From Antedon mediterranea (lineage: Eukaryota; Echinodermata; Crinoidea; Comatulida; Antedonidae), in assembly GCF_964355755.1 (NCBI RefSeq), contig NC_092673.1, positions 16,189,001 through 16,253,000 on the forward strand: a stretch of DNA of 64,000 nt. Direction: 5' to 3'. Each line of letters starts with the position of its first letter. Position 1 is the first letter of the stretch. Made by a program: the position numbers and the translations under genes. The notes beneath the pieces are model-generated. The model had not been told where the DNA came from. It ran no database searches and was given only the letters and a program-made list of their open reading frames with translations. Below, piece by piece: positions 14,661-54,600 of this stretch.

Positions 14661-14664
14661 ATGT

Positions 14665-15485
14665 AGTAACACCAGCATACAGGGTCATCTTCATTCACTA
14701 ACACCAGCATACAGGTCATCTTCATTCAGTAACACCAGCATACAGATCATCTTCATTCAGTAACACCAGCATACAGGTCATCTTCATTCAGTAACACCAG
14801 CATACAAGTCATCTTCATGCAGTAACACCAGCATACAGGTCGTCTTCATTCAGTAACGCCAGCATACAGGTCATCTTCATGTAGTAACGCCAGCATACAG
14901 GTCATCTTCATGCAGTAACACCAGCATACAGGTCATCTTCATTCAGTAACGCCAGCATACAGGTCATCTTCATCCAGTAACACCAGCATACAGGTCATTT
15001 TAATGCAGTAACACCAGCATACAGGCCATCTTCATGCAGTAACACCAGCATACAGGTCATCTTCATCCAGTAACACCAGCATACAGGTCATCTTCATCCA
15101 GTAACACCAGCATACAGGTCATCTTCATTCAGTAACACCAGCATACAGGAGTCATCTGCATGCAGTAACACCAGCATACATCTCATCTTCATTCAGTAAC
15201 ACCAGCATTTATACAGGTCATCTTCATTCAGTAATATGCAGGCATACAGGTCATCTTCATTCAGTAACGCCAGCATACAGGTCATCTTCATTCAGTATCA
15301 CCATACAGGTCATCTTCATGCAGACGTAACACCAGCATACAGGTCATCTTTCATTCAGTAACACCAGCATACATGTCATCTTCATTCAGTAACGCCAGCA
15401 TACAGGTCATCTTCATTCAGTAACACCAGCATACAGGAGTCATCTTCATGCAGTAACACCAGCCTACAGGTCATCGTTCATTCAT
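14665..15485. repeat. 31-bp minisatellite upstream of the ankyrin gene start
   Basis: About 26 copies of a 30-31 bp unit, cagtaacaccagcatacagg followed by tcatcttcatt. Variants include cgcc for cacc, atgcag for ttcag and several short insertions. It ends about 55 bp before a good splice acceptor (tcatattttcag, 15539) that precedes the ankyrin start codon. Confidence 0.95.
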
Positions 15486-15625: not shown

Positions 15626-18600
15626 GTACGTTTTTAACAATTATTTCAAACAAAAATAACCAGCTCCAATATGTGTTGATATTATTGAAATATGTAACTA
15701 TTAAAAACAAATTAAAATGTTTGAATAGTTATATTGACATAAATATATATATATAACATACTTTATGATCAGAATTTATAGTTCAAACAAAAAGAAAACA
15801 CTTTGATTTTAAGATATTCTTTTGAGAAAAATACTTAAAACTTTCTTAAAAGATTATAAAATCCAAATTTATTTCTTTCTTTCTTTAAAAATTTTGAAAT
15901 CATAAATATTACAATTAAAGGGCTCATTCTCATTAAATATAATAATAATAATATTTCCATCAATCATCATTCTCATTAAATACACGGGTATAAATGGATT
16001 ATTTCTTACATTTTGACAGGAAACATTTGGTAGAAGCTTTGTTAAGGAATGATTTGAAAACAATTAAACAAATCTGTAAGACGCAACCAGGTCTTCTGAA
16101 ATCTATCAATGAGGTATAAAAACAGATATATTTTTATAATATTATCAAAGAAGAAATTCTTTTCATTAAAGTTTAAAATTATAGAGGATGTAATTTTATT
16201 TAATAGTTTAAAGCTTTTTTAGGGTCTGTTTCTGCTGAAAAAATGAAAATAATCGATTTTTTCCAGTCACCGCAAACCACAAAAATAATCGCGTTGCAAT
16301 TGAAAATTGCTATGACTTTAATCGGTTATTCAGGTAATCGGTTTTTAAAATCACGTCATCATTCTCCCACAGCGCAGTTCAAGTTATGAAAGGCCAATGA
16401 GAGTTGGTTTGTTTACATCCTATCGCTGCCTAAAACTCTCACATGTAGGATTAAAAATTACTCTTACGTAAAGCTATATTGTTTGTAAAATAAACATCTA
16501 GGCCTACTACCGTACCACATACAACAGAATAATGATGTTATATTAATAAGGACACGTCGGCAAAAAAAGTTCGTTTCGCCGTTCGTTGGTTCTACCTTCG
16601 GCCTGCTAGGCATATGCATTTCTACCGAAACAAGTCAACAGACAACAGGCCTAAAAAATGACATGTAAAACATCGTTAGCCTGGACTGGTGGTGGTATGT
16701 AACGGGTGTACTTGTAACACAGAATCCTGGGGTCATCCTGGAGTTTCTCGGTATAATTCTTCCCCACAAAATAATAAAAATCAAAATGTTTAACATTTGA
16801 TTGTTATTCGGTCGCGATCGTGGTTTTGCTGATCGTCGTCGATATCGCGCAAATAAACAGCATGCTTTGTGACGTGAATAAGTTTGTCATACTCTAGAGG
16901 TCAAAGTGAGGTCAATTATCGCTATTTGTGTTGCAGCTCAAAACTGCTCCGCAATAATCGGTTAAAACAAGAAATAATCGATTAAAACACGCAATGGATT
17001 GAGTGTTTTTAATCGGTTATTTTTAATCGGTTATTTTATTTTGCGCTGTTTCTGCTGCCCAAAAATAATCGATTAAAAAAATAAACGGTTAATAATCGAT
17101 TATTTCTGCTCAGCAGAAACAGGCCCTTACTTAATGAATTACAATTCTTTTGCATTATCACACTGATGATGGAAGCTTACCTCTATGTACTGATTATCCA
17201 TATTAGGCTAAAAATAATCTATATATAAATTTACGTAAGGGCAAAATTCGATAAATCTCTGTTTATTTCTAGAATTTTTACTCGATGGTATATAAAGTTG
17301 GTTCATACTTTCGGTACTCATTTTAACCATCTGATGTAACCCTGTTTACTAATTAAATTGAGTTAGGTAATTAGTTATTGACGATTAAAACAAATTTAGG
17401 TTCAACGATTTGCCCCAAATAGGGGTGTTTTCCAATCGTGGTATACACTGTCTAATGGATGTCCATCTTGAAAAATACCCGCCACAAAAATGCGAGGAGG
17501 CTTCGCATTTTCCTATCTCCTCCTCCGATAATTGTTTTTAATAGCTGAAAACTGGTTGAACAGCTAGAGTACAGCATCATAATGTTGAAGACAGGCCGAT
17601 TTTCTTAAAAAATACTATTTTGATATATTTAATATACGATTATACAAATGTATTGATTTGCGATGAATGGAACATCCCAATCTCACAGTCTGCCAGAGTT
17701 TGGTTTAACATAAGTAGGTAAAATTATGAGCCCTTGGTTTAACACATACAGTAGGTAAATATATGGGCCCTTTGAGAATAAACTTGCAATACTTTGACAA
17801 TACTGTAATTGGTCCTCATTTGAATCGAACATTTCTTACTGTGAATGTCCGTACTGTTAGATGTAATATAAAAATATATACAAATAAACGTTATTACTGA
17901 GATTGTGGTGAGGCTCTACTGTTAGATATATAAACACATTATTATATATAAATAAACTTTATACTGACAGTTCCTTCTCAACGTTTGTATTAATTAATAA
18001 TTACCAATAATATAAACGTCGTAGTGGTGTATCGTGACATGTACTTTAATATTTCAATCGATTATGACAGTGACAGTTTCAACAAAGTATTAAATCGCAA
18101 ATGTTTTACTGTATTTAGAGGTATATTATTTATAGGCCTATAAAACATGAACAACATATTTCGTTACTGAGTGGATAAAGAATATATTTAAAAATTGTTC
18201 CTCTTTGTACTTATCCGCTTTCCCATCCCTCAACCCTAATGTTACATACAAAACACAAATTGGGTTTCTTTAAATGAGTCCAAATCAAAAATTTGGACTC
18301 ATTTTGTGATAAGTTTCTCCTTCGGAAGTAATTCCCAGGGTGCTAATTTTAGTTGACTACATAAATCGTGTCTATTTATTCGTTTCTGTAAACGACAATG
18401 TATTGTAGTCCTGCGGTACGTACATTTGAAATGCCAGTTTTGTTACGCTGAAATTACTGTGTATTCGAGAACCATCTGTGAGCACGACCTAGATGGTACG
18501 CGAGCGAAGCGAGCGTACCATCTAGTAATATAAATACACACTGATGATGGAGGTTTAACCTGTATGTACTGATTAACAACATTAGGCTAAAAATAATAAT

Positions 18601-21600
18601 ATAAATACACACTGATGATGGAGGTTTAACCTGCATGTACTGATTATCCATATTAGGCTAAAAATAATAATATAAATACACACTGATGATGGAGGTATAA
18701 CCTGCATGTACTGATTAACCACATTAGGCTAAAAATAATAATATAAATACACACTGATGATGGAGGTTTAACCTGCATGTACTGATTATCCATATTAGGC
18801 TAAAAATAATAATATAAATACACACTGATGATGGAGGTATAACCTGCATGTACTGATTAACCACATTAGGCTAAAAATAATAATATAAATACACACTGAT
18901 GATGGAGGTATAACCTGCATGCATTGATTAACAACATTAGGCTAAAAATAATAATATAAATACTGTACACACTGATGATGGAGGTATAACCTGCATGTAC
19001 TGATTAACCACATTAGGCTAAAAATAATAATATAAATACACACTGATGATGGGGGTATAACCTGCATGTACTGATTAACCACATTAGGCTAAAAATAATA
19101 ATATAAATACACACTGATGATGGAGGTTTAACCTGCATGTACTGATTATCCATATTAGGCTAAAAATAATAATATAAATACACACTGATGATGGAGGTAT
19201 AACCTGCATGTACTGATTAACCACATTAGGCTAAAAATAATAATATAAATACACACTGATGATGGAGGTATAACCTGCATGCACTGATTAACAACATTAG
19301 GCTAAAAATAATAATATAAATACACACTGATGATGGAGGTATAACCTGCATGTACTGATTAACCACATTAGGCTAAAAATAATAATATAAATACACACTG
19401 ATGATGGGGGTATAACCTGCATGTACTGATTAACCACATTAGGCTAAAAATAATAATATAAATACACACTGATGATAGAGGTATAACCTGCATGCACTGA
19501 TTAACCACATTAGGCTAAAAATAATAATATAAATACACACTGATGATGGAGGTATAACCTGCATGTACTGATTAACCACATTAGGCTAAAAATAATAATA
19601 TAAATACACACTGATGATGGGGTATAACCTGCATGTACTGATTAACCACATTAGGCTAAAAATAATAATATAAATACACACTGATGATGGAGGTATAACC
19701 TGCATGCACTGATTAACAACATTAGGCTAAAAATAATAATATAAATACTGTACACACTGATGATGGAGGTATAACCTGCATGTACTGATTAACCACATTA
19801 GGCTAAAAATAATAATATAAATACACACTGATGATGGGGGTATAACCTGCATGTACTGATTAACCACATTAGGCTAAAAATAATAATATAAATACACACT
19901 GATGATGGAGGTTTAACCTGCATGTACTGATTATCCATATTAGGCTAAAAATAATAATATAAATACACACTGATGATGGAGGTATAACCTGCATGTACTG
20001 ATTAACCACATTAGGCTAAAAATAATAATATAAATACACACTGATGATGGAGGTATAACCTGCATGCACTGATTAACAACATTAGGCTAAAAATAATAAT
20101 ATAAATACACACTGATGATGGAGGTATAACCTGCATGTACTGATTAACCACATTAGGCTAAAAATAATAATATAAATACACACTGATGATGGGGGTATAA
20201 CCTGCATGTACTGATTAACCACATTAGGCTAAAAATAATAATATAAATACACACTGATGATAGAGGTATAACCTGCATGCACTGATTAACCACATTAGGC
20301 TAAAAATAATAATATAAATACACACTGATGATGGAGGTATAACCTGCATGTACTGATTAACCACATTAGGCTAAAAATAATAATATAAATACACACTGAT
20401 GATGGGGTATAACCTGCATGTACTGATTAACCACATTAGGCTAAAAATAATAATATAAATACACACTGATGATGGAGGTAATTATAACCTGCATGCACGG
20501 ATTAACCACATTAGGCTAGAAAAAATAATATAAATACACACTGATGATGGGGGTATAACCTGCATGTACTGATTAACCACATTAGGCTAAAAATAATAAT
20601 ATAAATAAATCAAAGCTTAGCAGAATCTAAATGAAGCATAAAAGACATGATTTTGTGAAAAATGTTACAATTAGAGAAAAAGTAAAGACTTGATTACAAC
20701 AAACCAAATAAAAAACTAAATAGTTAATATCATTTATGAACTGATTTAAAGTGTACAGTTACCTGTCAAATATTACATATATCTTTAATTTTCTCAATGA
20801 AAAATCTTCATAATGGTAACCTACAATAATAATAATAATATCCTGGATTTATATAGCGCCTAATGTTGTGAAACCTCTAAGCGCTGAACATTATTACCCC
20901 AGTCATTTTCCTGATCAAACACCTATGGAAACATACTCCCATAATGCAGCTAGTAATAAGCGCAAAGTTGTGTCTTGATCTAACCGGGTTCCCAATTATA
21001 CACCTGGGTGGAGAGAGGCAAACGTAAGTAAAGTATCTTGCCTAAGGATACAAGCAATGCGGCGGGAGTTGGATTCGAAACTCGATCTCACGATCAGCAG
21101 TCCAACGTCCTTACAATGTTGTTAACATTTTTATGACCTTAAAACAAATATAAATTGCTCATTATTACTGTATGTACTTTAAGATAACGATTGACAATGG
21201 TCTAATTAATTGTAAATACGAAATAAAATGGGACATGCTACAGTGACTATTAATAAAATAACAAATTAAAAAATGTTAAAAATAGAATCTGATTTCAATA
21301 AAAAAGGATTATTAATTGTTAATAACCTGCTCCCGCCCTTTACTTACTTTACAATAAAAAACAAACATTTTGCACAAAAGGAAGAGAAATGTAAATAATG
21401 TTCAGTTTAGTAAAAATGTTTGAGCAATGCAATTTCAAAAAGAAATTTAATATGAAATTATTCTTTTCAAACAGTGCCATATCTTATCTTATGACTTTTT
21501 GGAAAAAATAATTCAATTAAATCAATTTTAAGGCTTCATGATATGATATGATTTTCATCGAGTCATGATATGATATGATCTTCATCGAGGCAAATGATAA

Positions 21601-24600
21601 ATTTGTTTTGATCGTCAATATAGTACACTGGTTTTCATTAGGTGTTAAAAATTAGTACTGAAAGTATTTACCATCGTTCTCTACCATTGGGTAAAAATTC
21701 TAAAAGTTGAACTTAATTTACAGAAATGTCCCATTACGTAAATTTATTTATAAATTCATTAAACTGCTTATTGGCCTCATATTTTTAATATCTGAACATT
21801 TGTTTGTACAATTTTATGAAATATTTATTTTATAACATTCAAATTTTGTGATTGACATTGTACAGTAATTAGATTTTGATGATTACTTACATTAAGTAAT
21901 AGGCTAACAATCACTAGATCTGATCCATGGTAATATATTATATTTTGTTTTCATTTATCAATAATGATAATTAGGATTTTATCACATTATTTAGCAGTAA
22001 TTGTTGTTGTTTGTATTAACAAAAAAAAAAACAATTTTACATAATGTCTGTTGTCAGTATTTATAAACTTCATGATTACGATTCCTTTCCAGAATGGGAA
22101 CACGCCATTACATGAGTGTCTGTGGCTTGGAGACCCTACCTTAGAAATAGTGACGTGTCTCATTCAGCATGGGGCGCCAGTAGCATTGCAAAATAAGGTA
22201 AATGTATAGGGATTTGCTTGTGTAATAGGCTAACATTATATAGATCTACTGAAGTAAACCATTTAATGAGAGAAAAAAGTAAGCACATTAACAAAAATCA
22301 AATTTGATTAAAACAAACCAAATAAAAAAATAACTAAATAGTTATATATGATTTATGATAACTGATTTAAAGTGTACAGTTACCTATCATATAACATAAA
22401 TCTTTAATTCTCTTAATGAACAAAAAAATCAATTTTTTTTATATATTCAGTTATTAATTAACAATTATTGACAATGGTCTAATTAATTGTAAATATGAAA
22501 TAAAATGCGACAACTACTAAACAACTAAAAATGTTTATGTTAAAAAAATTAATAGAATCTGATTTTAATAAAAAATAATTATTAATTAATAACCTACTCC
22601 CTCCCTTACCTTACAAAAAATGCTTCTTTCAGTCTATCCAGCTAATTATAAACATGGCCTTAAACTACATCTGGAGATCCTTTTCCAACCTAGGATATTT
22701 TTGTGCAAACATTTTGCCACAAAAGGAAGAGAAATGTAAATAATATTTAGCCTTTAGTTAGTGGTTTCCAAAATTTAAAATGTTTGAGCAATGCAATTTA
22801 AAAAAGAAAGCTAATATGAAATTATTCTTTTCAAACTGAATGCTTTAAAGTTGTATTGTCCCCCAAAACTTGAAAAATAAAGATGAAAAAAATCAAATTT
22901 TGAATAGACCATTTTATAGTTATACTAAAGTTACTCACTTTCGCCCAAAAAAATCCGGGGAAAAAAATGATTTTGCTTACCAAAAAACCGATTTAAAATC
23001 ATCATTTTTTTCGAACTCGGAGCGCTGATATTTCAAAATACTGTCGTTTAATCATCAACTAATGAATATGCACGATATGCTAATGACCACATACTTTTTG
23101 AGCGACGGCCGCCGGTAATCGAAAAAAAGTTTAGTGTCGCGATTATCGGAAAACTTGTGCGCTTAGAGTGTGAAAGATTGTTTTTGCATCCGATTGTCGA
23201 AAAGATAAAAAGCCTGAAAATCTAAATGGATTTATCGGTAGGTAGAATTGTTTACATTAGTTATACGCACTTTAGATACTACTCCTATGCCTAGATGAAT
23301 AGTAAAGATGACCCCAATGGATCAAGAACAACACCTCTTCAGAAGTCAACAGAATGGCTGGTCCGTCCCGTCCCGGGAGGAGAGCAATGACGATAGGCTC
23401 TCATCTCAATTAGGCCTATCTACTCTTTCTACTAGGTAGAGGCCTACCAATAAGGAGGAAAATAATATACAGTATTTTGATATCAAACCATAATCAATAG
23501 AAATTGACTGTGATTAAACCAAAAGTAATCATGTCACACTGTATCCGTTTTTTTTATTCTCCATTCTGTTTCGCCCATCCATAATATCCTACTAGGCTAC
23601 TCTAGAGTAGGCCCTAGTCCTAGGTTTATATGTCTATGCTAGAGTCCTGATAACTAGGAAACCTGCCTATGCTAAATAAGTACTAGACACTAGGCCTAAA
23701 TGAAAGGTATACTTTGCTAGGATTAACTGTACAAATATTATGTTTGCAGCATATATAATTTTATAAATACAGTAATATTATTTTAATACATACTGTAACT
23801 TGTGTTGTTGCCTAGTGCATATATTTATTTTTTGTGTGTTGTACCTAATATAATTTGTAGTTATTTTCAAGTACATCATCTGAACCGTCAAATCCAGAAG
23901 TAGGTTTAAGACAAAGGCAACGAGGAAGGGGAAGAGGACGAGGTAAAGGAAGAGGAAGGAGAGGGAGAGGAAAGAAAGATGGAACCCATATTGCTCTACA
24001 ACAGAGAGAAGAAAACATTTCTGTAAGAATTTTTTATTTTGTGGATATATGTCTAGAATGGAGATTTAAGAACGTGACAACATGGCATGAAAGTTTATGA
24101 TTATATTATGTATCATGGAAAACCAAAACATAGGAAAGTTATTGGATACCAGCATCCCAAATAAAAAGCTTTAAAAATGAAAAAATTGGTTTTGTAAATT
24201 ACTATATTTATATGCAGCCTGTATTTAATTTGCAGTCAAAAATAGATGCACTTAACGAGAATGAAGTCCGGAATCTTTTAAAAGAGGCAGCAAAAAAAAA
24301 TCTTGGCTTGATTCTAAGTATTTTGGATAGGCAACAGCTGCCTGAAAGAGGGCATCACCCAGATGCTGATGGAGCTGCACCAGACTGGTGTGTGTGCCAC
24401 GCCTGCCGTGAGATGCCGACACAGGTAGAGCGAATGTGTTGTGGGTATAATCCCGATAATTGCACATCCCTACTTCCAGTAAGTACAATATTTTAAATTT
24501 TTTTAAAGAAAAATTGCTTTACATTGATATTAATTTTTATTCAAGTATTTATTTGATTTAATATTTGGTATTTTGATATGAAACCATAATCAATAGAAAT

Positions 24601-27600
24601 TGACTGTGATCAAACCAAAAGTAATTATGTCACACATTGCTTTACATAACATTGATATTAATTATTCAAGTATTTATTTGATTTGATATTTCTAGTTTTA
24701 GCAACTACATAAAAAAAAAAAAAATATGACCAACCCCCTTATTTTAACAATTAATCCCCCATTTGTATCACTTTGCAACATATTTAATACACATAAATAT
24801 AGTAAAGACATTTTTAACATTTAACAACATTTTTTTAGGACTTTGAACTGCTTGTTCTGAATGAGGCAGTGTTAGACATTGCGCGGGCATACCGGCAAGA
24901 TGTTTTAGTCGCCCCATTAGACAACAACTGGAGCAGAGGCCATAGGCATACTGCCTACAGACAGTATATTTTGTGGCAGCATGGCAGACTTGGCATAGGA
25001 ATTCGCAGGACTATTCCAAGTTGCTGCGTTTGGAAAATACGAGACCGCTATCCTGATGAATTCGGCCAATACGTTGGGTTCCAACCAGCTCGTATATAAA
25101 ATCATTGTACATTATTTATAAATAAAACAAAAATATTTTGCACTTAAAGTTCATATATGATGTAATGGGAAAAAAAAATATTACAGGAAATATTTTGAAA
25201 TTGTAATACGAGTACATAATAAAAAATGAGGTAATTAATATATCTATTATACTACTGTATAATATATTATACTACTGTATAATATATTATACTACTGTAT
25301 ATCAATCATGAATTTCTGGATTATTTAAAATCGTGATAATTTGTCATCAACTAATTGCTGTGTTGGTGGTGGCTGAACTTGAGCAATTGTTGGGCAAATT
25401 CTTCTAGGATCATTTACATCTAAATCCAATGCTGCCTTCAAACTGGTATCGTCCATTAATCGCAGCTCAACAACCATTTCAAACAAGGTTTGGATGTACC
25501 CATACGTTTTCTCTTCTTTGACAGGTACCACTGTCCACCTTTTGCTTTTTTTGTTGAATAAACGTTGATACCTATAAAGAAAAGCAGAATATTGTGGGCC
25601 AAGTGAATTACAATTTCACATTGTTTAATTATCACTGTATATAACAATGTATCCTTTATTGTGAGAATGTTAAATTGATCATGTTTATATGGAATTTAGA
25701 AAGCAGATCACATCCACAAATTGCTGGCAGTTGAAACAAATATTAAATTAACTAGAAAGTATACCGTGTGGTCCCATCATTATTCTTTTTTATGGGTCTC
25801 TGGTGGTTTGATGTATAATCCAATGCTGCTATTAGATTTCTTGCCTTGTAAACTGGTGGGCTATAGGAAAAACGCTTAGCAGCATACATCAGAATGCACT
25901 GGTGGAAATTTTCCAATTCAGCTGTTCCTCTAAATATAAACAATACATTGCTAATTATTACTAAATGCATAATTTATAGAACAATTTAACATTTATTGTT
26001 TACTGTAAAAAGAATAAAAAATCATATTTCAACACAGTAGGTTCTCAATACAGTTTTTTTCTACATCCTACACAAAGTACTCACCGGAAATTGAGCCAGT
26101 ATGGAATCTTGTTGAGGAACCTTTTGCTCAAAACAATGTTCCTCAATGCATTATGTGCTGGATCGCTTTTTGCTAACCAGCCTTTATCTCTATCTGTTTC
26201 TAATGGGCCATGGCTGCAACAGGCCGTTCCACTATCACTGTACGACAACATCCATTCATGTTCGTTGACGACATGGTGGATAATTCCACACCAAATACCC
26301 TTTTATTGTATAAACCACAAAGAGAAAATTATAATAAAAAAATTATAATCACTGACACAGGAATTGCCAAGATTATTAACATATGATACATCCTGGTACA
26401 GTTAAATGCATTTCTGTTATTCATCATACATTAACCATAGGCATACTGTACTTACAATGAATTCATCATATGTGTTTGCAACCTCACATGTATGCCAGAA
26501 ATGGTTCACGATGTCCTGGCTCCAACTTAGTAATGCTTTGCACTCTTTTTTCTGTCCTGCCTAGTAACATATATTCAGAAAATAAAGTTAAGAACATGAG
26601 TTTACAGCAAGAATCTTATGACTACATATTTTCTATGTACTTATTTGTATTATTTGAACTTAAGATTGCCCCTGGCATTAATCTGTCCAGCTGGAAATAA
26701 TATAAAAAAATAATAAATACAGTATTCAAACTTACTGCAACCAACTTTTTTGCCAGATTTTTTGCAGCATGCTAGATATCATGAGAATGTTTTATCTCTG
26801 GATAATCTTTTTCTGATAAAAAAAAATACACAATAGCACATTTTATATAATGGATACAATTCATGCAATTTTAAATACTGTGAATTATCAAGTATAATCG
26901 AAATTTAATGTCATAAATTTTACAGAAAAGAAATACATAATCATTATTGCACCAATTTGCATATGTGCATCTGTAACACATTCAATCACCCTAACATTTT
27001 GTTCCTCAAGAAATTTTAGGCTGTCTTGAAATCCGACCTTTTCCATTGCTGTACTCTTACCACCGGTTTCACGCTTGTCCAGGGTTATAATTGACAGAAT
27101 GCTTTTGTCTGCATTGTTCATCATGGTGTAGGTACAGAATTGTGCGGAATGGCCTGGGCTGTCCATTCTGCCGTCTCCTAAATATAAAGATTTAGTAAAT
27201 TTATTACATTTCACGGTTTACAAATTAAACCATTTAACCCTCGATATATCAGAATTTAGTGTAAATTACAAAACCTACCAAGCAAAACAACCTCCTTTCC
27301 TTCATGACTTTTTAGAATCTCCTCCTGTGTTTTATCCCATAACTTGTTTATAGATGGAACCAGATAGCGTCTTTGTATTCTGTAAAATGTGTTACAATTT
27401 ACTATGTGCAGTTTCATAAACTTGGCAAACAAAGCTATCTTTCCATAGTTGTTCCCAGAAGCCAATATAGCAGTTGATGTTAACAGGTCACCTCCATGAA
27501 GATGGTTCTTCAAAATTGGTTGGGAACACCACTTATTGTTTAGATGCCCATTAACACATATCTTTAAAATATAACAAGTATTAATTAGTAGATACAGTAC

Positions 27601-30600
27601 TATAGTGTCTTTTATTAGAGATCACCACTAGAACAAGAAATTTAGCAGAAACTTTTTTTACTGTTCTTTGCTATTCAATCATGTACATGGTATGGCATAA
27701 TATTGACATGTTTAATATTGTCAGAAGATTCTTTATCGGTTTCTTCTTCTTCCTCATCATCACTGTAAAATTCCTCCTCAAATTCCTCTTCAGAAAAAGT
27801 TGTTTCTTGTAGATCAAGAGCTGCTAATAAAGTACAATGAGACTTTATTCAAACTTAATTGCTTTACATGAAATTAAGATTACTTATTTTATCAAATTAC
27901 AATTAATTAATACACAATTTTAGTTTACTACCAATGTAGACTAGAATTTAGTTTTAAGTTTTGACCACAGATTCTTTATGTAGAATAGTATGGTATATAA
28001 ATTAACCATTTCCTTCGACTATAAAATAAAAATAAAAGCACACTATTGTCAAGTCACTGGCATTATGAACGGCAATAATTAATATGTAGTACAGCTTCAG
28101 TAATTGCATGTGAATAAAATTTAAACAGTAGTCTTAAAATATGCATTACACAATGACAATGTTACATGTAAACTTACCACAGGAAGATATTAAAAGGAGG
28201 GTCGTAGTCTGGATCATCATCATCATCTGATTCACTTATGTCAATTTCAATAGTCATACTAGAAAAACAAGCATAACACAGTTTTAATTGCAATACAATT
28301 GTCTACCTAATTTGATATTGGTTGATGGATATTAAATGATTTGATTTCTATGGAATTTGAATTCAATGTTTATGTACTGTACAATCACCATAAACTGTTC
28401 ACCATCAGTACAACATGCATTCTTTGTTATTGCAAAATATATTTACTTTGACTTTCCAGCATTGCTTTCATATTCTGCCTTTCTTTCAGTATCACTTTCA
28501 CTAAAAATAAAAAAATATCATTTAAACCATTGAATATTCACCCTTTTCAATTGTAAAATATTGTTTAAATAAATAAATTACATTGTATAGTGCATCATTA
28601 CAGATTTACTGTACAATCACTTGTCAGTGAACTTACAGAAGGAGTTATTATTTACTAACAATTTACATTGAGTGCCTTTGAAGCCCACCATCACATACCA
28701 TTCCAAGTATCACATCACATCTCCCAGGTCACAAGAAACATAGAAAATGTAATGATTCTTAACAAATATAATATACCAATGCCATCTGATAATGTTACTG
28801 TTATTTCAGCAATTCAGTAAATTAAACATTGACTTACAATTCATTAGAAGATGAAAGTGCTGGTGCTGGTGAACTGGCTGAACCATGACTAGTAGTAGTG
28901 CTTAATTGATCTATTCCAGATATACCTGAAAGGCTGAAAGCAAACCAACAATGTGTTGTAAACTGATTGAATTGTTGATTACCAATTCACAAGTAACAAT
29001 TTATTACAATTGTTGTAATCATGGTTATTTTTGTATTATAGTATAATTAACACAGGCCTAATGGCCAACTTAATTAAAAATCATATTTAGTTAGAACACA
29101 TCATATTTTGCATTATTTATTTGATGTTACTTTTAAAATTGAAAATCATAGAATCTTACTGAATTTCAGTCATGGAATCTGAACTATGATGTTGTGTCAC
29201 CAATTTTGTTTCCACTGCCATCATTGGAGTGGATGTCATTGCTGTTGCAAACTGGGGAGATACTTGTTTTTTTCACTTGTTGCAAACTCCTACTAGGCCT
29301 AGCACCACTAGGCATAGTCCTAGCAGTACTAGTACTAGTAGTACTACTACAAGGCCTACTAGTTGTAGAAGTCATTTCATTTAGAAGGCATTGTCATCGT
29401 TGACTGCTTTGTTTTCTCATACCTATAATAGTATTAATAATTTATGTATAGACAGGCCTAGTAGTAGAATTTAGAATAAACATGCATGATGGCTAATAAA
29501 TATAATGTGAAGGCTCCATGACTAGCTATAACGAGTAGGCCTAGGCCTACTAGTTAGGCCTATATAAAATAGGCCTAGCCTAGAGGCCTACCTATCTTAT
29601 TTATATGCTAAATAATTTAATTTTTTTTAGAAGGGCTAGGCCCCTAGCCTACTTTACTAGAGTAGTATGCCTAGCCTAGGAGGAGGTAGGACGGACGGCC
29701 CTGCTGGGCCCACCACCACCCAGACAGTCAGAATACTCACATATCGAGTAAAAATGTTGCAACTTCAGTCTCGCTCTCAAGATTGTTTGAATCCTGAACT
29801 GCTGTCCATCTTACAAAAACTTCCGGACTTAGCAGTATTCTGCGATTATTGATATTGGTATTTATTCTACTTTTCCGTCTCTTTTTTTCTGAATTTGTGC
29901 TTCTGACCCTTCTGACTCGCCATCATAAGAATGTTTTCTGTCCCCGCGCGCGCGAGAGGTTGTTGTTCCTCCGGCAGCCGGCAGCAGTGCGATTTTGATC
30001 AAGTTTTTCCCCTGAGCAAATCCAGGGGCAAAGGTTAAAATCAATCGGAAGTCGGTTGGCTGCCAGCCAACCGACTTCCGGTTGACTATTTTTTACTTTA
30101 AATTACGATTTTCTGAGGTAAATAATTTTTTTTTTGATCCAATTTTTTTTCAAAGTGAATAACTTTTATGTATCATTAAAATGGCCTTTAAAAAAAAAAA
30201 AATTTTTGTTCAGGGGGACAATACATCTTTAAGAACAGTTCCGTCTCTTATCTTATGACTTTTCGGGGAAAAATGACATTATTAAAGTTGTTATATAAAA
30301 TTTGATACTAGTAAGTGTCAATAGATGGTTCTTAAATACATGACCTTTGGTAAATATCTGAAAATTGCACTGTACACAAGGCAAATAAATACAGATATGA
30401 TGGAATTTATGTTGTCAAATATAATTTTCATCCTGAGAATTACCTGAATTTTGTTTATTGCATGGCATTGTTCACCAAATTCCTGTCTTGGTACAATTGA
30501 TGATGGGATGGTTTAAGGCTTCATGATATGATATGATCTTCATCGAGTCATGATATGATATGATCTTCATCGAGGAAAATGGTTTAAACTAAATTTGTTA

Positions 30601-33600
30601 TCGTTAATATCTAACTTAGCTTAATTATGATATTGGTTTCATTGGGTGTTAAAAATCAGTACTGAAAGTATGTACCAACTTTCTCTACCATTGAGTATAA
30701 ATTCTAGAAGTTGGACTTAATTTACTAAATTTCCCATTACCTAAATATATATGTAAATTCATTTAACTGCTTATTGGCTTCATATTGTTAACATCTAAAC
30801 ATTTGTTTGTACAATTTTATGAAATATGTATTTTATTAATGTTCAAATTTTGTGATTGATATTGTACAGTAAGTAGATTTTAATGATTACTTACATTAAG
30901 TAATAGGCTAACAATCACTAGATCTGATCCATGGTAATATATTATATTTTGTTTTCATTTATCAATAATGATAATTAGAATTTTATCACATTATTTAGCA
31001 GTAATTGTTGTTGTTTGTATTTACAGAAAAAAACAATTTCACATAATGTCTGTTGTCAGTATTTATAAACTTCATTATGATTCCTTTCCAGTATGGTGAC
31101 ACTATATTACATTCATATCTGGGGAATCGTGGATATACAACAACTATACCTACCTTAGAAATAGTGACGTGTCTCATTCAGCATGGGTCACCAGTAGCAT
31201 TGCAAAATAAGGTAATGTACAGGGATTTGCTAGTGTAATAAGCTAACATTATATAGATCTGCTGAAGTAAACCATTTAATGAGAGAAAAAAGAAAGCACA
31301 TTAACAAAAATCAAATTTTTGAATTAGTAATTCGTTTGAACGGATTAATAATCTGTTCAAACGAATTAGTAATCCGTTCAAACGAATTGCAACATATACA
31401 ACAAGTGCCATTTAAAGTATATGTTGTAATTCGTTTAAACGAATTACTAATTTGTTTAAACAGATTACTAATTCGTTCAAACGAATTACTAATTCGTTCA
31501 AACAGATTAGTAATCCGTTTAAACAAATTATTAATTTGTTTAAACAAATTATTAATTTGTTTAAACGGATTACTAATTCGTTTGAACGAATTAGTAATCC
31601 GTTTAAACAAATTATTAATTCGTTTAAACAAATTAGTAATCCGTTTAAACAAATTAGTAATTCGTTTGAACGAATTAGTAATTCGTTTGAACAAATTAGT
31701 AATCCGTTTAAACAAATTAGTAATTCGTTTGAACGGATTAGTAATCCGTTTAAACGAATTACAACATATACTTTAAATGGCACTTGTTGTATATGTTGCA
31801 ATTCGTTTGAACGGATTACTAATTCGTTTGAACAGATTATTAATCCGTTCAAACGAATTACTAATTCGTTAGAACGGATTACGTTCGAAAAACATACACT
31901 TAAAATGGCATTAATGGGCTTTCGTAACAAACCAACTAAAAAAATAACTAAATAGTTATATATGATTTATGATAACTGATTTAAAGTGTACAGTTACCTA
32001 TCATATAACATAAATCTTTAATTTTCTCAATGAAAAATCTTCATAGTAACCTACAATAATAATAATATCCTGGATTTATATAGCGCCTAATGTTGTTAAA
32101 CCTCTAAGCGCTGAACATTTTCCTGATCAAACACCTATGGAAACATTCTCCCATAACGCAGCTAGTAATAAGCGCAAAGTTGTGTCTTGATCTAACCGGG
32201 TTCCCAATTATACACCTGGGTGGAGAGAGGCAAACGTAAAGTAAAGTATCTTGCCTAAGGATACAAGCAATGCGGCGAGAGTTGGATTCGAAACTCGATC
32301 TCACGATCAGCAGTCCAACGTCCTTACAATGTTGTTAACATTTTTATGACCTTAAAACAAATATAAATTGCTCATTATTACTGTATGTACTTTAAGATAA
32401 CGATTGACAATGGTCTAATTAATTGTAAATATGAAATAAAATGGGACATGCTACATTTGACTATTAATAAACTAACAAATTAAAAAATGTTTATGTTAAA
32501 AATAGAATCTGATTTCAATAAAAAAGGATTATTAATTGTTAATAACCTGCTCCCGCCCTTTACTTACTTTACAATAAAATACTTCTGTAAGTCTTATCAC
32601 ATACAGTATGAATATGGCCTTAAAGAGATCCTTTTCCAAACAAACATTTTGCACAAAAGGAAGAGAAATGTAAATAATGTTTAGTTTAGTAAAAATGTTT
32701 GAGCAATGCGATTTCAAAAAGAAATTTAATATGAAATTATTCTTTTCAAACAGTGCCGTATCTTATCTTATGACTTTTTGGAAAAAATGATTCTATTAAA
32801 GTTGCCAGTTAAAATTTGATATACTGGTAATTAAGTGCCCACAGATGGTTCTCGAATACATAAACTTTGGTAAATAACTGAATATTGTCTAAGTCGGTCT
32901 GTACACAAAGCAAATAAATATAGATATGATGGAATTTATGTAGTCAAATATAATTGTCATCTTGAGAATTACCTTAATTTTGTTTATTGCATGGTATTGT
33001 TCACCAAATTCCTGTCTTGGTACATTTGATAATGGGATGGGATCGTCAATATAGTACACTGGTTTTCATTAGGTGTTAAAAATTAGTACTGAAAGTATTT
33101 ACCAACTTTCTCTACCATTGGGTAAAAATTCTAAAAGTTGAACTTAATTTACAGAAATTTCCCATTACGTAAATTTATATATAAATTCATTAAACTGCTT
33201 ATTGGCCTCATATTTTTAATATCTCAACATTTGTTTGTACAATTTTATGAAATATTTATTTTATAACGTTCAAATTTTGTGATTGCCATTGTACAGTAAT
33301 TAGATTTTGATGATTACTTACATTAAGTAATAGGCTAACAATCACTAGATCTGATCCATGGTAATATATTATATTTTGTTTTCATTTATCAATAATGATA
33401 ATTAGGATTTTATCACATTATTTAGCAGTAATTGTTGTTGTTTGTATTAACAAAAAAAAAACCAATTTCACATAATGTCTGTTGTCAGTATTTATAAACT
33501 TCATGATTACGATTCCTTTCCAGAATGGGAACACTCCATTACATGAGTGTCTGTGGCTTGGAGACCCTACCTTAGAAATAGTGACGTGTCTCATTCAGCA

Positions 33601-36600
33601 TGAGGCGCCAGTAGCATTGCAAAATAAGGTAAATGTATAGGGATTTGCTAGTGTAATAAGCTAACATTCTATAGATCTACTGAAGTAAACCATTTAATGA
33701 GAGAAAAAAGTAAGCACATTAACAAAAATCAAATTTGATTAAAACAAACCAAATAAAAAATAACTAAATAGTTATATATGATTTATGATAACTGATTTAA
33801 AGTGTACAGTTACCTATCATATAACATAAATCTTTAATTTTCTTAATGAACAAAAAAATCAATTTTTTTTATATATTCAGTTATTAATTAACAATTATTG
33901 ACAATGGTCTAATATGAAATAAAATGCGACAACTACTAAACAATTAAAAATGTTTATGTTAAAAAAATTAATAGAATCTGATTTTAATAAAAAATAATTA
34001 TTAATTAAAAACCTGCTCCCTCCCTTACCTTACAAAAAATGCTTCTGTCAGTCTATCCAGCTAATTATGAAAATGGCCTTAAAGAAATCTTTTTCCAACC
34101 TAGGGTTCTCACAGATGCTTCTCGAATACATGAACTTTGGTAAATAACTGAAAATTGCACTGGACACCAGGCAAATAAATACAGATATGATGGAATTTAT
34201 GTAGTCAAATATAATTGTCATCCTGAGAATTACCTTAATTTTGTTTATTGCATGGTATTGTTCACCAAATTCCTGTCTTGGTACATTTGATGATGGGATG
34301 TTATCAGGTTTCATGATATGATATGATTTTCATCGAGGCAAATGGTTTAAATTAAATTTGTTATCGTTAATATCTAACTTAGCTTAATTATGATATTGGT
34401 TTCATTGGGTGTTAAAATTCAGTACTGAAAGTATGTACCAACTTTCTCTACCATTGAGTATAAATTCTAGAAGTTGCACTTAATTTACTAAAATTTCCCA
34501 TTACCTAAATATATATGTAAATTCATTTAACTGCTTATTGGCTTCATATTGTTAACATCTAAACATTTGTTTGTACAATTTTATGAAATATGTATTTTAT
34601 TAATGTTCAAATTTTGTGATTGATATTGTACAGTAAGTAGATTTTAATGATTACTTACATTAAGTAATAGGCTAACAATCACTAGATCTGATCCATGGTA
34701 ATATATTATATTTTGTTTTCATTTATCAATAATGATAATTAGAATTTTATCACATTATTTAGCAGTAATTGTTGTTGTTTGTATTTACAAAAAAAAACAA
34801 TTTCACATAATGTCTGTTTGTCAGTATTTATAAGCTTCATGATTATCATTCCTTTCCAGGATGGTAACACTCTATTACATTCATATCTGAGGAGTGGATA
34901 TCTGAGGCGTGTATATACAACAACTATACTGGTACCTACCTTAGAAATAGTGACGTATCTCATAATGTCTGTTGTCAGTATTTATAAACTTCATTATGAT
35001 TCCTTTCCAGTCTGGTGACACTCTATTACATTCATATCTGAGGAGTGGAAATACACCTACCTTAGAAATAGTGACGTGTCTCATTCAGCATGGGACACCA
35101 GTAGCATTGCAAAATAAGGTAAATGTACAGGAATTTGCTAGTGTAATAAGCTAACATTATATAGATCTGCTGAAGTAAACCATTTAATGAGAGAAAAAAG
35201 TAAGCACATTAACAAAAATCAAATTTTATTAAAACAAACCAAATAAAAAAATAACTAAATAGTTATATATGATTTATGATAACTGATTTAAAGTGTACAG
35301 TTACCTATCATATAATATAAATCTTTAATTTTCTTAATGAACAATAAAATCTATTTTTTTTATATATTCAGTTATTAATTAACAATTATTGATAATGGTC
35401 TAATTAATTGTAAATATGAAATAAAATGGGACAACTACTAAACAAAAATTAATAGAATCTGATTTTAATAAAAAAAAATTATTAATTGATAATGATTATT
35501 AATTAATAATGTGCTCCTTCCCTTATCTTACAAAAAAAATTCTTCTGTCAGTCTATCTAGCTAATTATAAACATGGCCTTAAACTACATCTGGAGATCCT
35601 TTTCCAACCTAGGATCTTTTTGTGCAAACATTTTTTGATCTTCATCGAGGCAAATGATAAATTTGTTTTGATCGTCAATATTCATTCATTCATTCATTCA
35701 TTCAGGCTTATTGCCTGACTTTATTTACTTTAGGCCTCTGGCCCCTAGTAATTAATAAAATAATAATTACATTGAAAAATAAAGCAATTTATGGTCACAA
35801 GATAAATGAATTAATTAACTTATAAGCATGATAAATATATTTAGATAGATTATCAATAATTATTGGATCCTGTGATGAAATTAAACGGCAGAATTTAAAA
35901 GTATTTGGATTTTCAAAAAATAAAGAAGGTATAAATTTTTTTCTGATTTCCTTGTAACGAGAGCAAACTGTAACAAAATGATATTCACCTTCAACTTCAT
36001 TTATATCACATATTTTACATAACCTATTGTTGCGCTCTATTCTTTTCCATCTTCCCTTTTCTACCTCTAGTTGAAGTGTGCCCGGTCTTTTAGTTGACTT
36101 AAAGCTCGCTTATATCTAGTATCAAGGGTCTGTAGTAAGTATCCATCTACTCCGAAATTGTTTTTGAACATTTTATAATATCTTAATTTTGAAGAAATAT
36201 TTATGCTTTCATGAAAGGATTGGCGTTCCATATCGGTTAGCCTTTCTTTTATTTGATTAATTATATGAAATTTATCAAGGACATTATTTTGTGAAAACCA
36301 TATGTTTCCATGACCAATAGAGCATAACATATGTTTTACATCGCTTACCCAACAATTACTATTATTTTGCGCTTTATGAAGTTGAGATTTATAACATTTC
36401 TTCGCATATCTGTCCTCGTTCATATTTACTAGTCTTACCCAATAACGGATAACATTGAGTACACCTTCGATTGATAAAGAGAATCGTCTACATTCCCCTC
36501 TAATTGAAACATTTGTGGCTGATTTCCCGACCCCTAAAACATATCTACAGAAATTATTTTGAATATCATCAATTTTGTTGTTGTTTAGTTTTCCCCATAT

Positions 36601-39600: not shown

Positions 39601-42600
39601 AGTATGTACAAACTTTCTCTACCATTGAGTATAAATTCTAGAAGTTGTACTTAATTTACTAAAATTTCCCATTACCTAAATATATATGTAAATTCATTTA
39701 ACTGCTTATTGGCTTCATATTGTTAACATCTAAACATTTGTTTGTACAATTTTATGAAATATGTATTTTATTAATGTTTACATTTTGTGATTGATATTGT
39801 ACAGTACGTAGATTTTAATGATTACTTACATTAAGTAATAGGCTAACAATCACTAGATCTGATCCATGGTAAGATATTATATTTTGTTTTCATTTATCAA
39901 TAATGATAATTAGGATTTTATCACATTATTTAGCAGTAATTGTTGTTGTTTGTATTTACAAAAAAAAACAATTTCACATAATGTCTGTTGTCAGTATTTA
40001 TAAACGTTCATGATTATGATTTTTTTCCAGGATGGTAACACTCCATTACAGTCATATCTGTGGAGTGTATATACACCTACCTTAGAAATAGTTACGTGTC
40101 TCATTCAGCATGGGGCACCATTAGCATTGCAAAATAAGGTAAATGTACAGGGATTTGCTAGTGTAATAGGCTAACATTCTATAGATCTGCTGAAGTAAAC
40201 CCATTAACAAAAATCAAATTTTATTAAAACAAACCAAATAAAAAAATAACTAAATAGTTATATATGATTTATGATAACTGATTTAAAATGTAAAGTCTAA
40301 TTAATTGTAAATATGAAATAAAATTTGACAACTACTAAACAACTAAAAAATGTTTATGTTAAAAAAATTAATAGAATCTGATTTTAATAAAAAATGATTA
40401 TTAATTAAAAACCTGCTCCCTCCCTTACCTTACAAAAAATGCTTCTGTCAGTCTATCCAGCTAATTATGAACATGGCTTTAAAGAAATCCTTTTCCAACC
40501 TAGGGTCTTTTTGTGCAAACATTTGCCACAAAATGAAGAGAAATGTACACAATGTTTTGTTAGTTTTCAAAATCTAAATTGTTTGAGTAATGCAATTTAA
40601 AAAAGAAAAGTAATATGAAATTAGTCTTTTCAAACTGAATGCTTTTAAGAAAAGTTCCGTCTCTTATCTTATGACTTTTTTGAAAAAATTAATTCTCGTT
40701 TTTTTTTTTATTCAGTATATTACACAGAGGCGCCTTACAAAATGGAACCATCTTAGCTTCAAGGCGCCTCAGATTAACAAATACAACATTTTAAAACAAC
40801 TAACAGAAACATCAATTAAATCTTCCAGAATTAACAAGAAATTGTTGTACATAATAAAATAATAAAGCATTTTCACAATTCGAAAGAAGATCGGAACCAA
40901 AAATAAAAATTTCACTTAAAAATGTAAAATTAAATGTTAAAGAAAAATCCTTGGCTAAGATATCCTCAATAATTGAGTTAGCGCTTACAAGTAGAATATC
41001 TCTTTGTGTATTATAATTAGGGCAGTAACATAAGAAATGAAGCGGATTCTCAACATTAAAGCCACAAGTACAATTTGGATTGTCCCGAAGTCCATGTAAG
41101 AATAAATGCGAATTGAGACAGCTGAAACCAAGTCGGATTCTAGTGTGAATTTGGTTAATCTTCTTATCACCTGTATCATAATAAGAACGTTTTTTTGTTT
41201 CAAACAAATTGGATTTCAGTAGCAATTTTTTAAACTCAACAAGAAATGAGGAATTTTTTATTTCATTATTTAACTCATTCCAATGTGTTATAATAGATGG
41301 GACAAAAGATAAACGATATGATGTGGTCTTACAAAATGGAATTATTATATTTCGGATGTTACGCAAGTTATAAACTTCAATATTGTCAGAAAAATTAAAT
41401 AAGAAGTAAAGATACACTGGTGTTAACTTATGAATAATTTTAAAAAACAGTATTAGGTTAAGAAATTGTCTACGTTTTTCCAATGATAACCAGCCTAATT
41501 CTTATCTTAATGCATTATGACTTGTATGTTTCCACGCACCAGTACATATTCTACCTGCAGAAATCTGGATATTTTCTAGTTCATCACTTAATTTATCTGG
41601 GATATTACACCAAACAGGAGCTGCATATTCCATTAATGGTCTAACGTGTGATATGTAAATGTGACAGAGAGCCTGTCGAGGTAGAATATGTTTGACACGA
41701 CGTAGCATATTTAAAGATAAAGACGCTTTGTTAATTACAGATTGGATATGGGAATCCCACTTGAGTTTTGCATTAAGCATTAAACCAAGATGCCTATGAT
41801 CATTTACAAATTGTAGATTTACATTATTGAAATTTAAACTAACATAGTTATCTAAATGTTTACGTGTAAACAGTATAGCTTTCGTTTTGTTAGCATTGAA
41901 TGTTACTTTCCATTTTTTTGCCCAATTATAAATGACATTAAGATCACCATTTAATTTTTGTTCTGAAATATTACGATCTGTACAAATATCATATAACGAA
42001 GTATCATCTGCATATACACTAATATTAGATTTGATATTATCAACCATATCATTTATGAATACAATAAATAAAAATGGACCCAAAACAGATCCTTGGGGTA
42101 CTCCTGCTGTAATGGTCACCCAATGACTGGTAGTTCCTTCAATAATAACACGTTGCTCACGTGAGTTTAAGTAACTTTGGAACCATTTTAGAAGAGTGCC
42201 ATTAATTCCATATTGATTTAATTTGTATATAATCCCATTATGCCAAACTTTATCGAAGGCTTTGGAAATATCCAAAAATACCGAGATTACTTCTTTCCTT
42301 AAATCTAAAGCTCTATTAAATGTATCTATAAGATAAAGAAGTTGATACGTTGTCGAGTCACCTGGTGTAAAACCAGATTGGAATTGAGTAAGAAGTTTAT
42401 TATCCACAAAGTATTTATATACTATATCAAAAACTGCACGCTCAAAAATTTTTGCAAAGTTGGAAAGTATGGATATAGGGCGGTAGTTCTCAATAAGGGA
42501 TTTATTGCCTTTTTTATGCAGAGGAATGATATTTGATTTTTTCCATTCCACAGGAAAATATCCTTGGCTTATGCAGAAGTTATAAAGCTTTGTCAAATGG

Positions 42601-51600: not shown

Positions 51601-54600
51601 ATTGTTTTGAAGTAATCATGCCATTTTTTAAGTGTAATGTTTGTCACATTTTGTTGTCGTTTGGTTTTAAGGTTTTTCCAAAATATTGTACTGTTATGTT
51701 CCTTTATTAACCTGATTAATTTTTGTTGTGATGAATTTTTATGTTTATTTTTTTTAAATTTTATTAATTTTTTATAACTCCTTTTCTTTAACAGATATTC
51801 ATTTAATAGGGTGTTAGTTTTGTATTTTCTATATTTATTAAGAATGCTACGAATAATAATTTTCTTTTTTATGCATTGACGATCAAACCATGTATTCTTG
51901 GGCAATTTTGTGCATTTTTGTTGTATTTGTGTTTGTTTTTTTGTATTTATGTACATTTATAGTACACTGGTTTTCATTAGGTGTTAAAAATCAGTACCGG
52001 AAGTATGTACAAACTTTCTCTACCATTGAGTATAAATTCTAGAAGTTGCACTTAATTTACTAAAATTTCCCATTACCTAAATTTATATGTAAATTCATTT
52101 AACTGCTTATTGGTCTCATATTGTTAACATCTAAACATTTGTTTGTACAATTTTATGAAATATGTATTTTATTAATGTTTACATTTTGTGATTGATATTG
52201 TACAGTACGTAGATTTTAATGATTACTTACATTAAGTAATAGGCTAACAATCACTAGATCTGATCCATGGTAAGATATTATATTTTGTTTTCATTTATCA
52301 ATAATGATAATTAGGATTTTATCACATTATTTAGCAGTAATTGTTGTTGTTTGTATTTACAAAAAAAAACAATTTCACATAATGTCTGTTGTCAGTATTT
52401 ATAAACGTTCATGATTATGATTTTTTTCCAGGATGGTAACACTCCATTACAGTCATATCTGTGGAGTGTATATACACCTACCTTAGAAATAGTTACGTGT
52501 CTCATTCAGCATGGGGCACCATTAGCATTGCAAAATAAGGTAAATGTACAGGGATTTGCTAGTGTAATAGGCTAACATTCTATAGATCTGCTGAAGTAAA
52601 CCCATTAACAAAAATCAAATTTTATTAAAACAAACCAAATAAAAAAATAACTAAATAGTTATATATGATTTATGATAACTGATTTAAAATGTAAAGTCTA
52701 ATTAATTGTAAATATGAAATAAAATTTGACAACTACTAAACAACTAAAAAATGTTTATGTTAAAAAAATTAATAGAATCTGATTTTAATAAAAAATGATT
52801 ATTAATTAAAAACCTGCTCCCTCCCTTACCTTACAAAAAATGCTTCTGTCAGTCTATCCAGCTAATTATGAACATGGCTTTAAAGAAATCCTTTTCCAAC
52901 CTAGGGTCTTTTTGTGCAAACATTTGCCACAAAATGAAGAGAAATGTACACAATGTTTTGTTAGTTTTCAAAATCTAAATTGTTTGAGTAATGCAATTTA
53001 AAAAAGAAAAGTAATATGAAATTAGTCTTTTCAAACTGAATGCTTTTAAGAAAAGTTCCGTCTCTTATCTTATGACTTTTTTGAAAAAATTAATTCTCGT
53101 TTTTTTTTTATTCAGTATATTACACAGAGGCGCCTTACAAAATGGAACCATCTTAGCTTCAAGGCGCCTCAGATTAACAAATACAACATTTTAAAACAAC
53201 TAACAGAAACATCAATTAAATCTTCCAGAATTAACAAGAAATTGTTGTACATAATAAAATAATAAAGCATTTTCACAATTCGAAAGAAGATCGGAACCAA
53301 AAATAAAAATTTCACTTAAAAATGTTAAATTAAATGTTAAAGAAAAATCCTTGGCTAAGATATCCTCAATAATTGAGTTAGCGCTTACAAGTAGAATATC
53401 TCTTTGTGTATTATAATTAGGGCAGTAACATAAGAAATGAAGCGGATTCTCAACATTAAAGCCACAAGTACAATTTGGATTGTCCCGAAGTCCATGTAAG
53501 AATAAATGCGAATTGAGACAGCTGAAACCAAGTCGGATTCTAGTGTGAATTTGGTTAATCTTCTTATCACCTGTATCATAATAAGAACGTTTTTTTGTTT
53601 CAAACAAATTGGATTTCAGTAGCAATTTTTTAAACTCAACAAGAAATGAGGAATTTTTTATTTCATTATTTAACTCATTCCAATGTGTTATAATAGATGG
53701 GACAAAAGATAAACGATATGATGTGGTCTTACAAAATGGAATTATTATATTTCGGATGTTACGCAAGTTATAAACTTCAATATTGTCAGAAAAATTAAAT
53801 AAGAAGTAAAGATACACTGGTGTTAACTTATGAATAATTTTAAAAAACAGTATTAGGTTAAGAAATTGTCTACGTTTTTCCAATGATAACCAGCCTAATT
53901 CTTGTCTTAATGCATTATGACTTGTATGTTTCCACGCACCAGTACATATTCTACCTGCAGAAATCTGGATATTTTCTAGTTCATCACTTAATTTATCTGG
54001 GATATTACACCAAACAGGAGCTGCATATTCCATTAATGGTCTAACGTGTGATATGTAAATGTGACAGAGAGCCTGTCGAGGTAGAATATGTTTGACACGA
54101 CGTAGCATATTTAAAGATAAAGACGCTTTGTTAATTACAGATTGGATATGGGAATCCCACTTGAGTTTTGCATTAAGCATTAAACCAAGATGCCTATGAT
54201 CATTTACAAATTGTAGATTTACATTATTGAAATTTAAACTAACATAGTTATCTAAATGTTTACGTGTAAACAGTATAGCTTTCGTTTTGTTAGCATTGAA
54301 TGTTACTTTCCATTTTTTTGCCCAATTATAAATGACATTAAGATCACCATTTAATTTTTGTTCTGAAATATTACGATCTGTACAAATATCATATAACGAA
54401 GTATCATCTGCATATACACTAATATTAGATTTGATATTATCAACCATATCATTTATGAATACAATAAATAAAAATGGACCCAAAACAGATCCTTGGGGTA
54501 CTCCTGCTGTAATGGTCACCCAATGACTGGTAGTTCCTTCAATAATAACACGTTGCTCACGTGAGTTTAAGTAACTTTGGAACCATTTTAGAAGAGTGCC

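Follow-up and report, generated by a model that had tools for sequence, protein, structure and literature searches.

Kolobok transposons of the Kol0 lineage were described by Kojima and Bao in 2022 as elements that encode, besides a transposase, a second protein, KolX, with the fold of the P2X7 ballast domain (PMC9587614; this paper, PMC7016195, and PMC7776569 are cited throughout from the portions of their text that were available). Such elements were named there from vertebrates, annelids, cnidarians, and sponges, and P2X7 itself was derived from the fusion of a P2X4-like gene with KolX (PMC9587614). Here, we analyze a window of 64,000 nucleotides from the crinoid Antedon mediterranea (NC_092673.1, forward-strand positions 16,189,001 to 16,253,000; coordinates without a locus label are those of this window). 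Within it, a TTAA-flanked element at 22849-30228 carries a ballast-domain gene that converges on a transposase gene. We consider this element very probably an autonomous-type Kolobok transposon of the Kol0 lineage, with KolX as a transposition partner gene. Its assignment to Kol0 rests on KolX.

A preliminary description of the same sequence had proposed that a ballast gene traveling as the partner gene of a mobile element would suggest how the domain spread and came to be fused to a P2X4-like receptor. This idea about the origin of the P2X7 tail is supported and right but not new, as it was published in 2022 (PMC9587614). New here are the crinoid families, the evidence that the two genes are inherited together and constrained between families, the arginine-glycine (RG)-rich tail common among relatives, and an idea about guanine nucleotides.

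Ends of the element and target site

22845..22848, no strand: left target-site duplication TTAA, read from the letters and supported by the empty-site paralogs
22849..22864, plus: left terminal inverted repeat (TIR) AGTTGTATTGTCCCCC with a 5'-RR end; TTAA+TIR pattern with 2,184 exact genome matches
30213..30228, minus: right TIR AGATGTATTGTCCCCC, read from the letters
30229..30232, no strand: right target-site duplication TTAA, read from the letters
40631..40661, plus: paralogous empty site with a single TTAA, from the joined-flank match
53032..53062, plus: second copy of the paralogous empty site, in the same local duplication, from the joined-flank match

The inverted ends and the TTAA on both sides had been recognized in the preliminary description, and both are borne out. 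The two 16-bp TIRs are identical at 15 of 16 positions, and the termini, AG...CT when read directly from the letters, have the form 5'-RR...YY-3' (purines, then pyrimidines). In the window alone, the pair of matches to the 13-base TIR core is unremarkable for its size: with up to two mismatches allowed there were two matches, both exact, and 24 of 100 shuffles also gave at least two. Across the 354-Mb genome, TTAAAGNTGTATTGTCCCCC occurs exactly 2,184 times (1,064 forward and 1,120 reverse), against 0 for a reversed control. Joining the flanks over one TTAA produces a match to two paralogous repeat copies with a single TTAA at the junction. Because both copies lie within a local 12.4-kb duplication, they amount to a single witness. 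A further paralog at 32692-33040, more distantly related, is gapped at the junction and does not show the single TTAA. The element inserted into TTAA with duplication of that site, splitting a local repeat.

The local duplication is in tandem, with a spacing of ~12.4 kb (window about 33000-46000 and 45500-58300), and it contains near-identical open reading frames (41502-43352 and 53212-56178, minus strand) that by eye resemble a non-long-terminal-repeat reverse transcriptase.

The ends also bear on KolobokP, a composite lineage known from three echinoderm classes (PMC9587614). That the element belongs there is exceedingly improbable: the long terminal direct repeats of KolobokP (about 450 or 660 bp) are lacking, since no direct repeats of at least 60 nucleotides were found at both ends of the three elements tested, the window element included, and the second gene is KolX, with its P2RX7_C domain, rather than a His-Me finger nuclease. 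The window element does hold one internal pair of 77-nucleotide direct repeats (23463-23539 and 24559-24635, 92% alike), which lie in two introns of the ballast gene.

The ballast gene and the opposing transposase

23226..23237, plus: KolX-type ballast gene exon 1 (MDLS), donor GTAGGT, phase 0; an inferred start exon, with the deposited protein P0001 also starting MDLS
23861..24022, plus: ballast gene exon 2, RG-rich tail, from exon joining
24236..24478, plus: ballast gene exon 3, helical region and first cysteine clusters (WCVCHAC, MCC)
24839..25099, plus: ballast gene exon 4, RHTAYRQY, a further conserved motif, and the stop

As the preliminary description had it, the ballast gene joins with clean phases into a 225-residue product, from four exons with GT/AG introns that are all in phase 0. 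P2RX7_C is the only Pfam domain above the cut-off in this product, which has no P2X channel domain; the predicted structure also calls the ballast fold, so that the assignment of a P2X7-tail domain holds. All of the KolX cysteines are present. Our comparison set comprised 45 KolX relatives, which are the hits of one protein search, are biased to close relatives, and may not all lie in transposons. In this set, the cysteines equivalent to P2X7 C479, C482, C498, C499, C506, C572, and C573 are kept in 40, 42, 40, 41, 41, 43, and 36 of 45 sequences, respectively, and at least four RG pairs precede the domain in 32 of the 38 relatives having at least 60 residues there. The recurrence of the tail is compatible with a role related to nucleic acids, such as the accessory role suggested earlier, but does not demonstrate one. 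One KolX relative matched Cut8 (E = 8.2e-4), a match absent in ten members rescanned (perhaps without that one), and a Cut8 identity was dropped.

A deposited A. mediterranea protein, P0001, is named "P2X purinoceptor 7-like" and is near-identical to the window KolX. The name could point to a host P2X7-like gene that merely sits beside a transposon, a reading to which we give almost no credence: it is refuted by the position of the gene within the TIRs and by multi-copy pairing with transposases, with 84 such loci on 11 of 18 contigs and recent copies of a related family at different TTAA sites, and P2RX7_C stands alone above the Pfam cut-off in the 225-residue product. The deposited gene can instead be traced to locus L071, which has the same left flank as the window element and is a segmental duplicate, not a second insertion. 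The three distinguishing residues of the L071 KolX match P0001, so what was deposited under the name "P2X purinoceptor 7-like" is the KolX of the duplicate. Several bivalve relatives carry the same name.

25328..25567, minus: transposase C-terminal exon piece
25761..25928, minus: transposase exon piece with the third catalytic residue (LENFH; E codon 25911-25913), from alignment
26087..26302, minus: transposase exon piece with the His/Cys motif (HHVVNEH...CSH), from alignment
26456..26557, minus: transposase exon piece
26736..26783, minus: transposase exon piece, DxxH signature broken by an in-frame stop at 26772-26774
26954..27178, minus: transposase core exon with the first D (27173-27175) and VTDAH with the second D (26969-26971), from alignment
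27280..27561, minus: transposase exon piece ahead of the first catalytic D
27600..30102, minus: region expected to carry the transposase N-terminal exons, which were not placed

The Kolobok-like transposase proposed earlier for the opposite strand is confirmed, with a core signature from about 27178 on the minus strand and both the catalytic aspartate-aspartate-glutamate (DDE) triad and DxxH. Seven exon pieces could be placed on that strand. We aligned the transposase to 34 relatives of that of another Antedon family, E, picked from 120 listed, and could recognize the three catalytic residues (D, D, E) as well as DxxH and the His/Cys motif. Between DxxH and the last E, residues H454, H459, C469, and H471 are invariant in the alignment (A4); they have likely equivalents in the window copy, where they would form a predicted metal site. 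Pfam identifies a Mutator-like transposase in 19 and a THAP domain in 11 of the 34 relatives, and the core exons of the window copy gave no Pfam match of their own. The piggyBac transposase goes by the name DDE_Tnp_1_7 in Pfam, and no match to it was found among the scan results. A profile search for a solved structural relative returned a best E of 0.12, with unrelated names. In family C, a THAP-domain open reading frame (E = 8.3e-18; L074 5590-6330, minus strand) lies upstream of the transposase and is probably its N-terminal DNA-binding part; a Pfam hit to Mutator-like elements in family C fell below the cut-off.

The preliminary description had missed the in-frame stop in DxxH. This stop (26772-26774) is common to the segmental duplicate L071; in two related copies, L072 and L073, the frame stays open at this point. 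With a stop in the catalytic domain of its transposase frame, the window copy is therefore a fossil.

All of the Kolobok superfamily features that we tested are present: TTAA duplication, RR/YY ends, DDE with C/DxxH, and a zinc-finger-type motif before the last E. A piggyBac transposon, which likewise duplicates TTAA and in a few families carries a protein like the KolX C terminus (PMC9587614), is accordingly a very remote prospect. The 5'-RR/YY-3' termini of the window element are stated for Kolobok and not for piggyBac in the available text (PMC9587614), the transposase relatives match Mutator-like models and carry DxxH with the His/Cys motif, and the KolX-like proteins of piggyBac are without most of the KolX cysteines (PMC9587614), all of which the window protein has.

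Pairing, mobility, and constraint in the Antedon genome

To count loci, we merged two KolX and three transposase searches, adding by hand, for two of the transposase searches, only rows at new places; genome repeat counts from these searches are lower bounds. The merged set holds at least 84 KolX-like loci, spread over 11 of the 18 contigs, and at least 87 transposase loci. A transposase match lies within 6 kb of 45 of the 84 KolX-like loci, compared to a mean of 0.275 and a maximum of 3 in 200 random relocations over the 11 contigs. Nearly all of these pairs are convergent (42 of 45), and at two of the three exceptions (C3:31403308 and C5:9452697) a further transposase match, 2.4 kb off, is convergent. 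Pairing is seen in at least six diverged families. The check proposed in the preliminary description, whether copies repeatedly hold both genes, thus comes out in its favor, through these convergent pairs in related families and the TTAA-flanked inverted ends around both genes in families C and E, where the ends were inspected in individual copies.

Evidence of mobility comes from those two families. Family C (L074 1098-6404) has five copies that are 99.75 to 100% alike in the compared pieces; TTAA stands at both ends in all five, and the ~40 flanking bases printed differ between copies. In family E (L075 791-5534), of whose eight KolX loci five were examined, four loci have both ends and TTAA and the fifth has the left end only, at the expected place. 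Our script scan for paired ends retained RR termini only, and the copies read of families B and F gave no convincing pair of ends with TTAA. The family B copy shows a TIR-like sequence and TTAA directly after the KolX coding end (L073 2981-2997). Family G (L077 1653-4770, one copy read) is TTAA-flanked, with perfect 16-bp TIRs, a KolX exon, and no transposase match; its 14 loci (L102-L115) have KolX exons that are on average 98.5% alike.

Coding matches to the window's own family, A, occur at 4 loci, versus the 2,184 TTAA+TIR end matches. Four loci with paired ends 0.34 to 5.8 kb apart share only the terminal ~100 to 240 bp with the window element; they hold neither gene, and matches to the two proteins reach E = 0.067 at best. 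Elements with only the shared ends are presumably non-autonomous derivatives and far more numerous. The preliminary description had named a consistent lack of the ballast gene in other TIR-family copies as a point that would speak against it. These four end-only loci do lack that gene, along with the transposase, but gene-less loci are ordinary for non-autonomous derivatives and do not refute the two-gene reading.

Between families A and B, synonymous sites are saturated (proportion of synonymous differences, 0.82 and 0.77), and nonsynonymous differences amount to 24% in KolX and 9% in the transposase; between families A and H, the nonsynonymous proportion is 0.41 for both genes. Judged from these coding sequences, constraint between families is shown for both genes. 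Their distances also correlate over six families (r = 0.89, with 4 of 720 permutations, including the true order), as they do without family B (0.71, 2 of 120 permutations); for the transposase, only a core of about 75 to 81 residues was used.

Several observations count against KolX as a transposition partner gene in such a two-gene element. The N terminus of the window transposase was not placed, and nine stop-to-stop open reading frames scanned in 27600-30102 contained no THAP match. Within the window family, the ratio of nonsynonymous to synonymous rates (dN/dS) against L072 is 0.94 on 12 changes for KolX, with no constraint seen, versus 0.34 on 9 changes for the transposase; selection on KolX inside this family was therefore not upheld, the changes being few and without a sign of constraint. 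The family G exon is neutral, 17 of its changes being nonsynonymous and 7 synonymous against an expected ratio of 2.27, so that family G was rejected as a case of selection on a mobile element carrying KolX alone. The family B copy read (L073) has a broken KolX, and the other six family B rows also have stops within the match; the family nonetheless exists in at least seven similar copies, which may or may not have arisen by transposition. Finally, the 6 kb around 39 of the 84 KolX-like loci (14 of them family G) hold no transposase match, and 42 of the 87 transposase loci are not the nearest partner of any KolX.

The broken KolX of family B, the neutral exon of family G, and the 42 unpaired transposase loci are what could be expected of a passenger, i.e., a captured host gene with no role in transposition. 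We regard a passenger as unlikely in view of the between-family constraint, the correlated distances of the two genes, the pairing in at least six diverged families with 42 of 45 pairs convergent, and the presence of KolX in Kol0 elements of vertebrates, annelids, cnidarians, and sponges (PMC9587614). Since family B is multi-copy with a broken KolX, elements may draw on KolX made in trans or may not absolutely require it. The observations fit a gene that active lineages need but that a single copy can do without in cis.

Elsewhere in the window, satellite-like tandem arrays lie at 885-1902, 14655-15484, 18526-20607, and 31321-31870, with periods of 66, 31, 71, and 21 to 63 bp.

Possible role of KolX and comparison with known systems

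In intact families, the transposase would bind the inverted ends, cut the element out, and join it to TTAA targets. KolX, with its RG-rich tail, helical segment, and zinc-cysteine domain, would serve as a partner devoted to transposition, working in the nucleus on nucleic acid or on the transpososome, and it would be retained and passed on together with the transposase. A role for KolX in transposition would offer a way to what the ballast fold may first have been selected for.

A more specific, and unlikely, proposal is that KolX is a guanine-nucleotide-responsive transposase partner, supplying in trans a guanosine triphosphate (GTP)-binding module that helps position the transposon ends. The P element transposase has such a GTP-binding domain in its own chain (PMC7776569). 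The proposal draws on a predicted fold that is the same as that of the nucleotide-binding domain, on the occurrence of THAP domains in both transposase groups (P element and Kolobok), and on an R-H...R core kept in most KolX relatives, including bivalves and an octocoral. Rump et al. named five contacts of guanosine diphosphate (GDP) in the rat protein, R546, H547, R574, R578, and K583, of which only R546 and R578 were reported as kept beyond deuterostomes (PMC7016195). In our 45 relatives, R546 is kept in 44, H547 in 40, and R578 in 43, and the histidine is also found in the bivalve and octocoral sequences P0002, P0004, P0010, and P0031. Against the proposal, the equivalents of R574 and K583 are absent in 45 of 45 relatives, and family C, the one whose copies are near-identical, lacks the histidine. 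Translations of the other families in this genome show both arginines in C, D, E, F, and H but no histidine in C, D, and F; in the broken family B, a lysine stands where the first arginine would be. Judged by titles and abstract starts, none of the open-access papers found to mention both Kolobok and GTP concerned KolX. If the proposal were true, the ballast of P2X7 would have kept its GDP site as a remnant of transposition chemistry.

The P element and THAP9 offer a wider parallel, in that THAP domains likewise occur in family C and in 11 of the 34 Kol0-type relatives, and P and Kolobok have the C/DxxH signature in common (PMC9587614). The P element differs in its built-in GTP-binding domain and its 8-bp duplications (PMC7776569), whereas the Antedon element encodes a separate ballast protein beside the transposase. 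The Nanor/ZCD proteins are likewise short and end in the same domain (Rump et al. 2020, PMC7016195). For these, ancestral synteny was proposed, and the stem "transpos" is absent from the main text of that paper as available (PMC7016195); the Antedon gene lies inside a transposon.

Relative to the P2X7 ballast domain, the window KolX has the same fold and zinc cysteines and keeps R546, H547, and R578 of the rat GDP contacts. Unlike the receptor, it is a free protein with an RG-rich tail and no channel, and the equivalents of rat R574 and K583 are missing throughout its relatives. A tree of 26 ballast domains, with 17 of 23 inner branches open and a bootstrap that is not settled, groups P2X7 weakly with window-type sequences and away from families C and E; so poorly resolved a sequence tree neither shows nor excludes P2X7 nested in KolX.

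The closest known system is Kolobok Kol0 of the Kolobok-1_XT type (PMC9587614). The window element resembles it in its DDE transposase and KolX with the ballast fold, in the TTAA duplication and 5'-RR/YY-3' ends, and in the DxxH signature and His/Cys motif between the second D and the E. It differs from the Kol0 elements described in the available text (PMC9587614) in its crinoid host and, for the window copy, in a broken transposase and spliced genes. One such transposon gene carries the receptor's name in a database deposit. In sum, our results support the view that the domain distinguishing P2X7 lives as a mobile gene beside a transposase, and they do so in echinoderms, a phylum that the available part of PMC9587614 does not name for Kol0.

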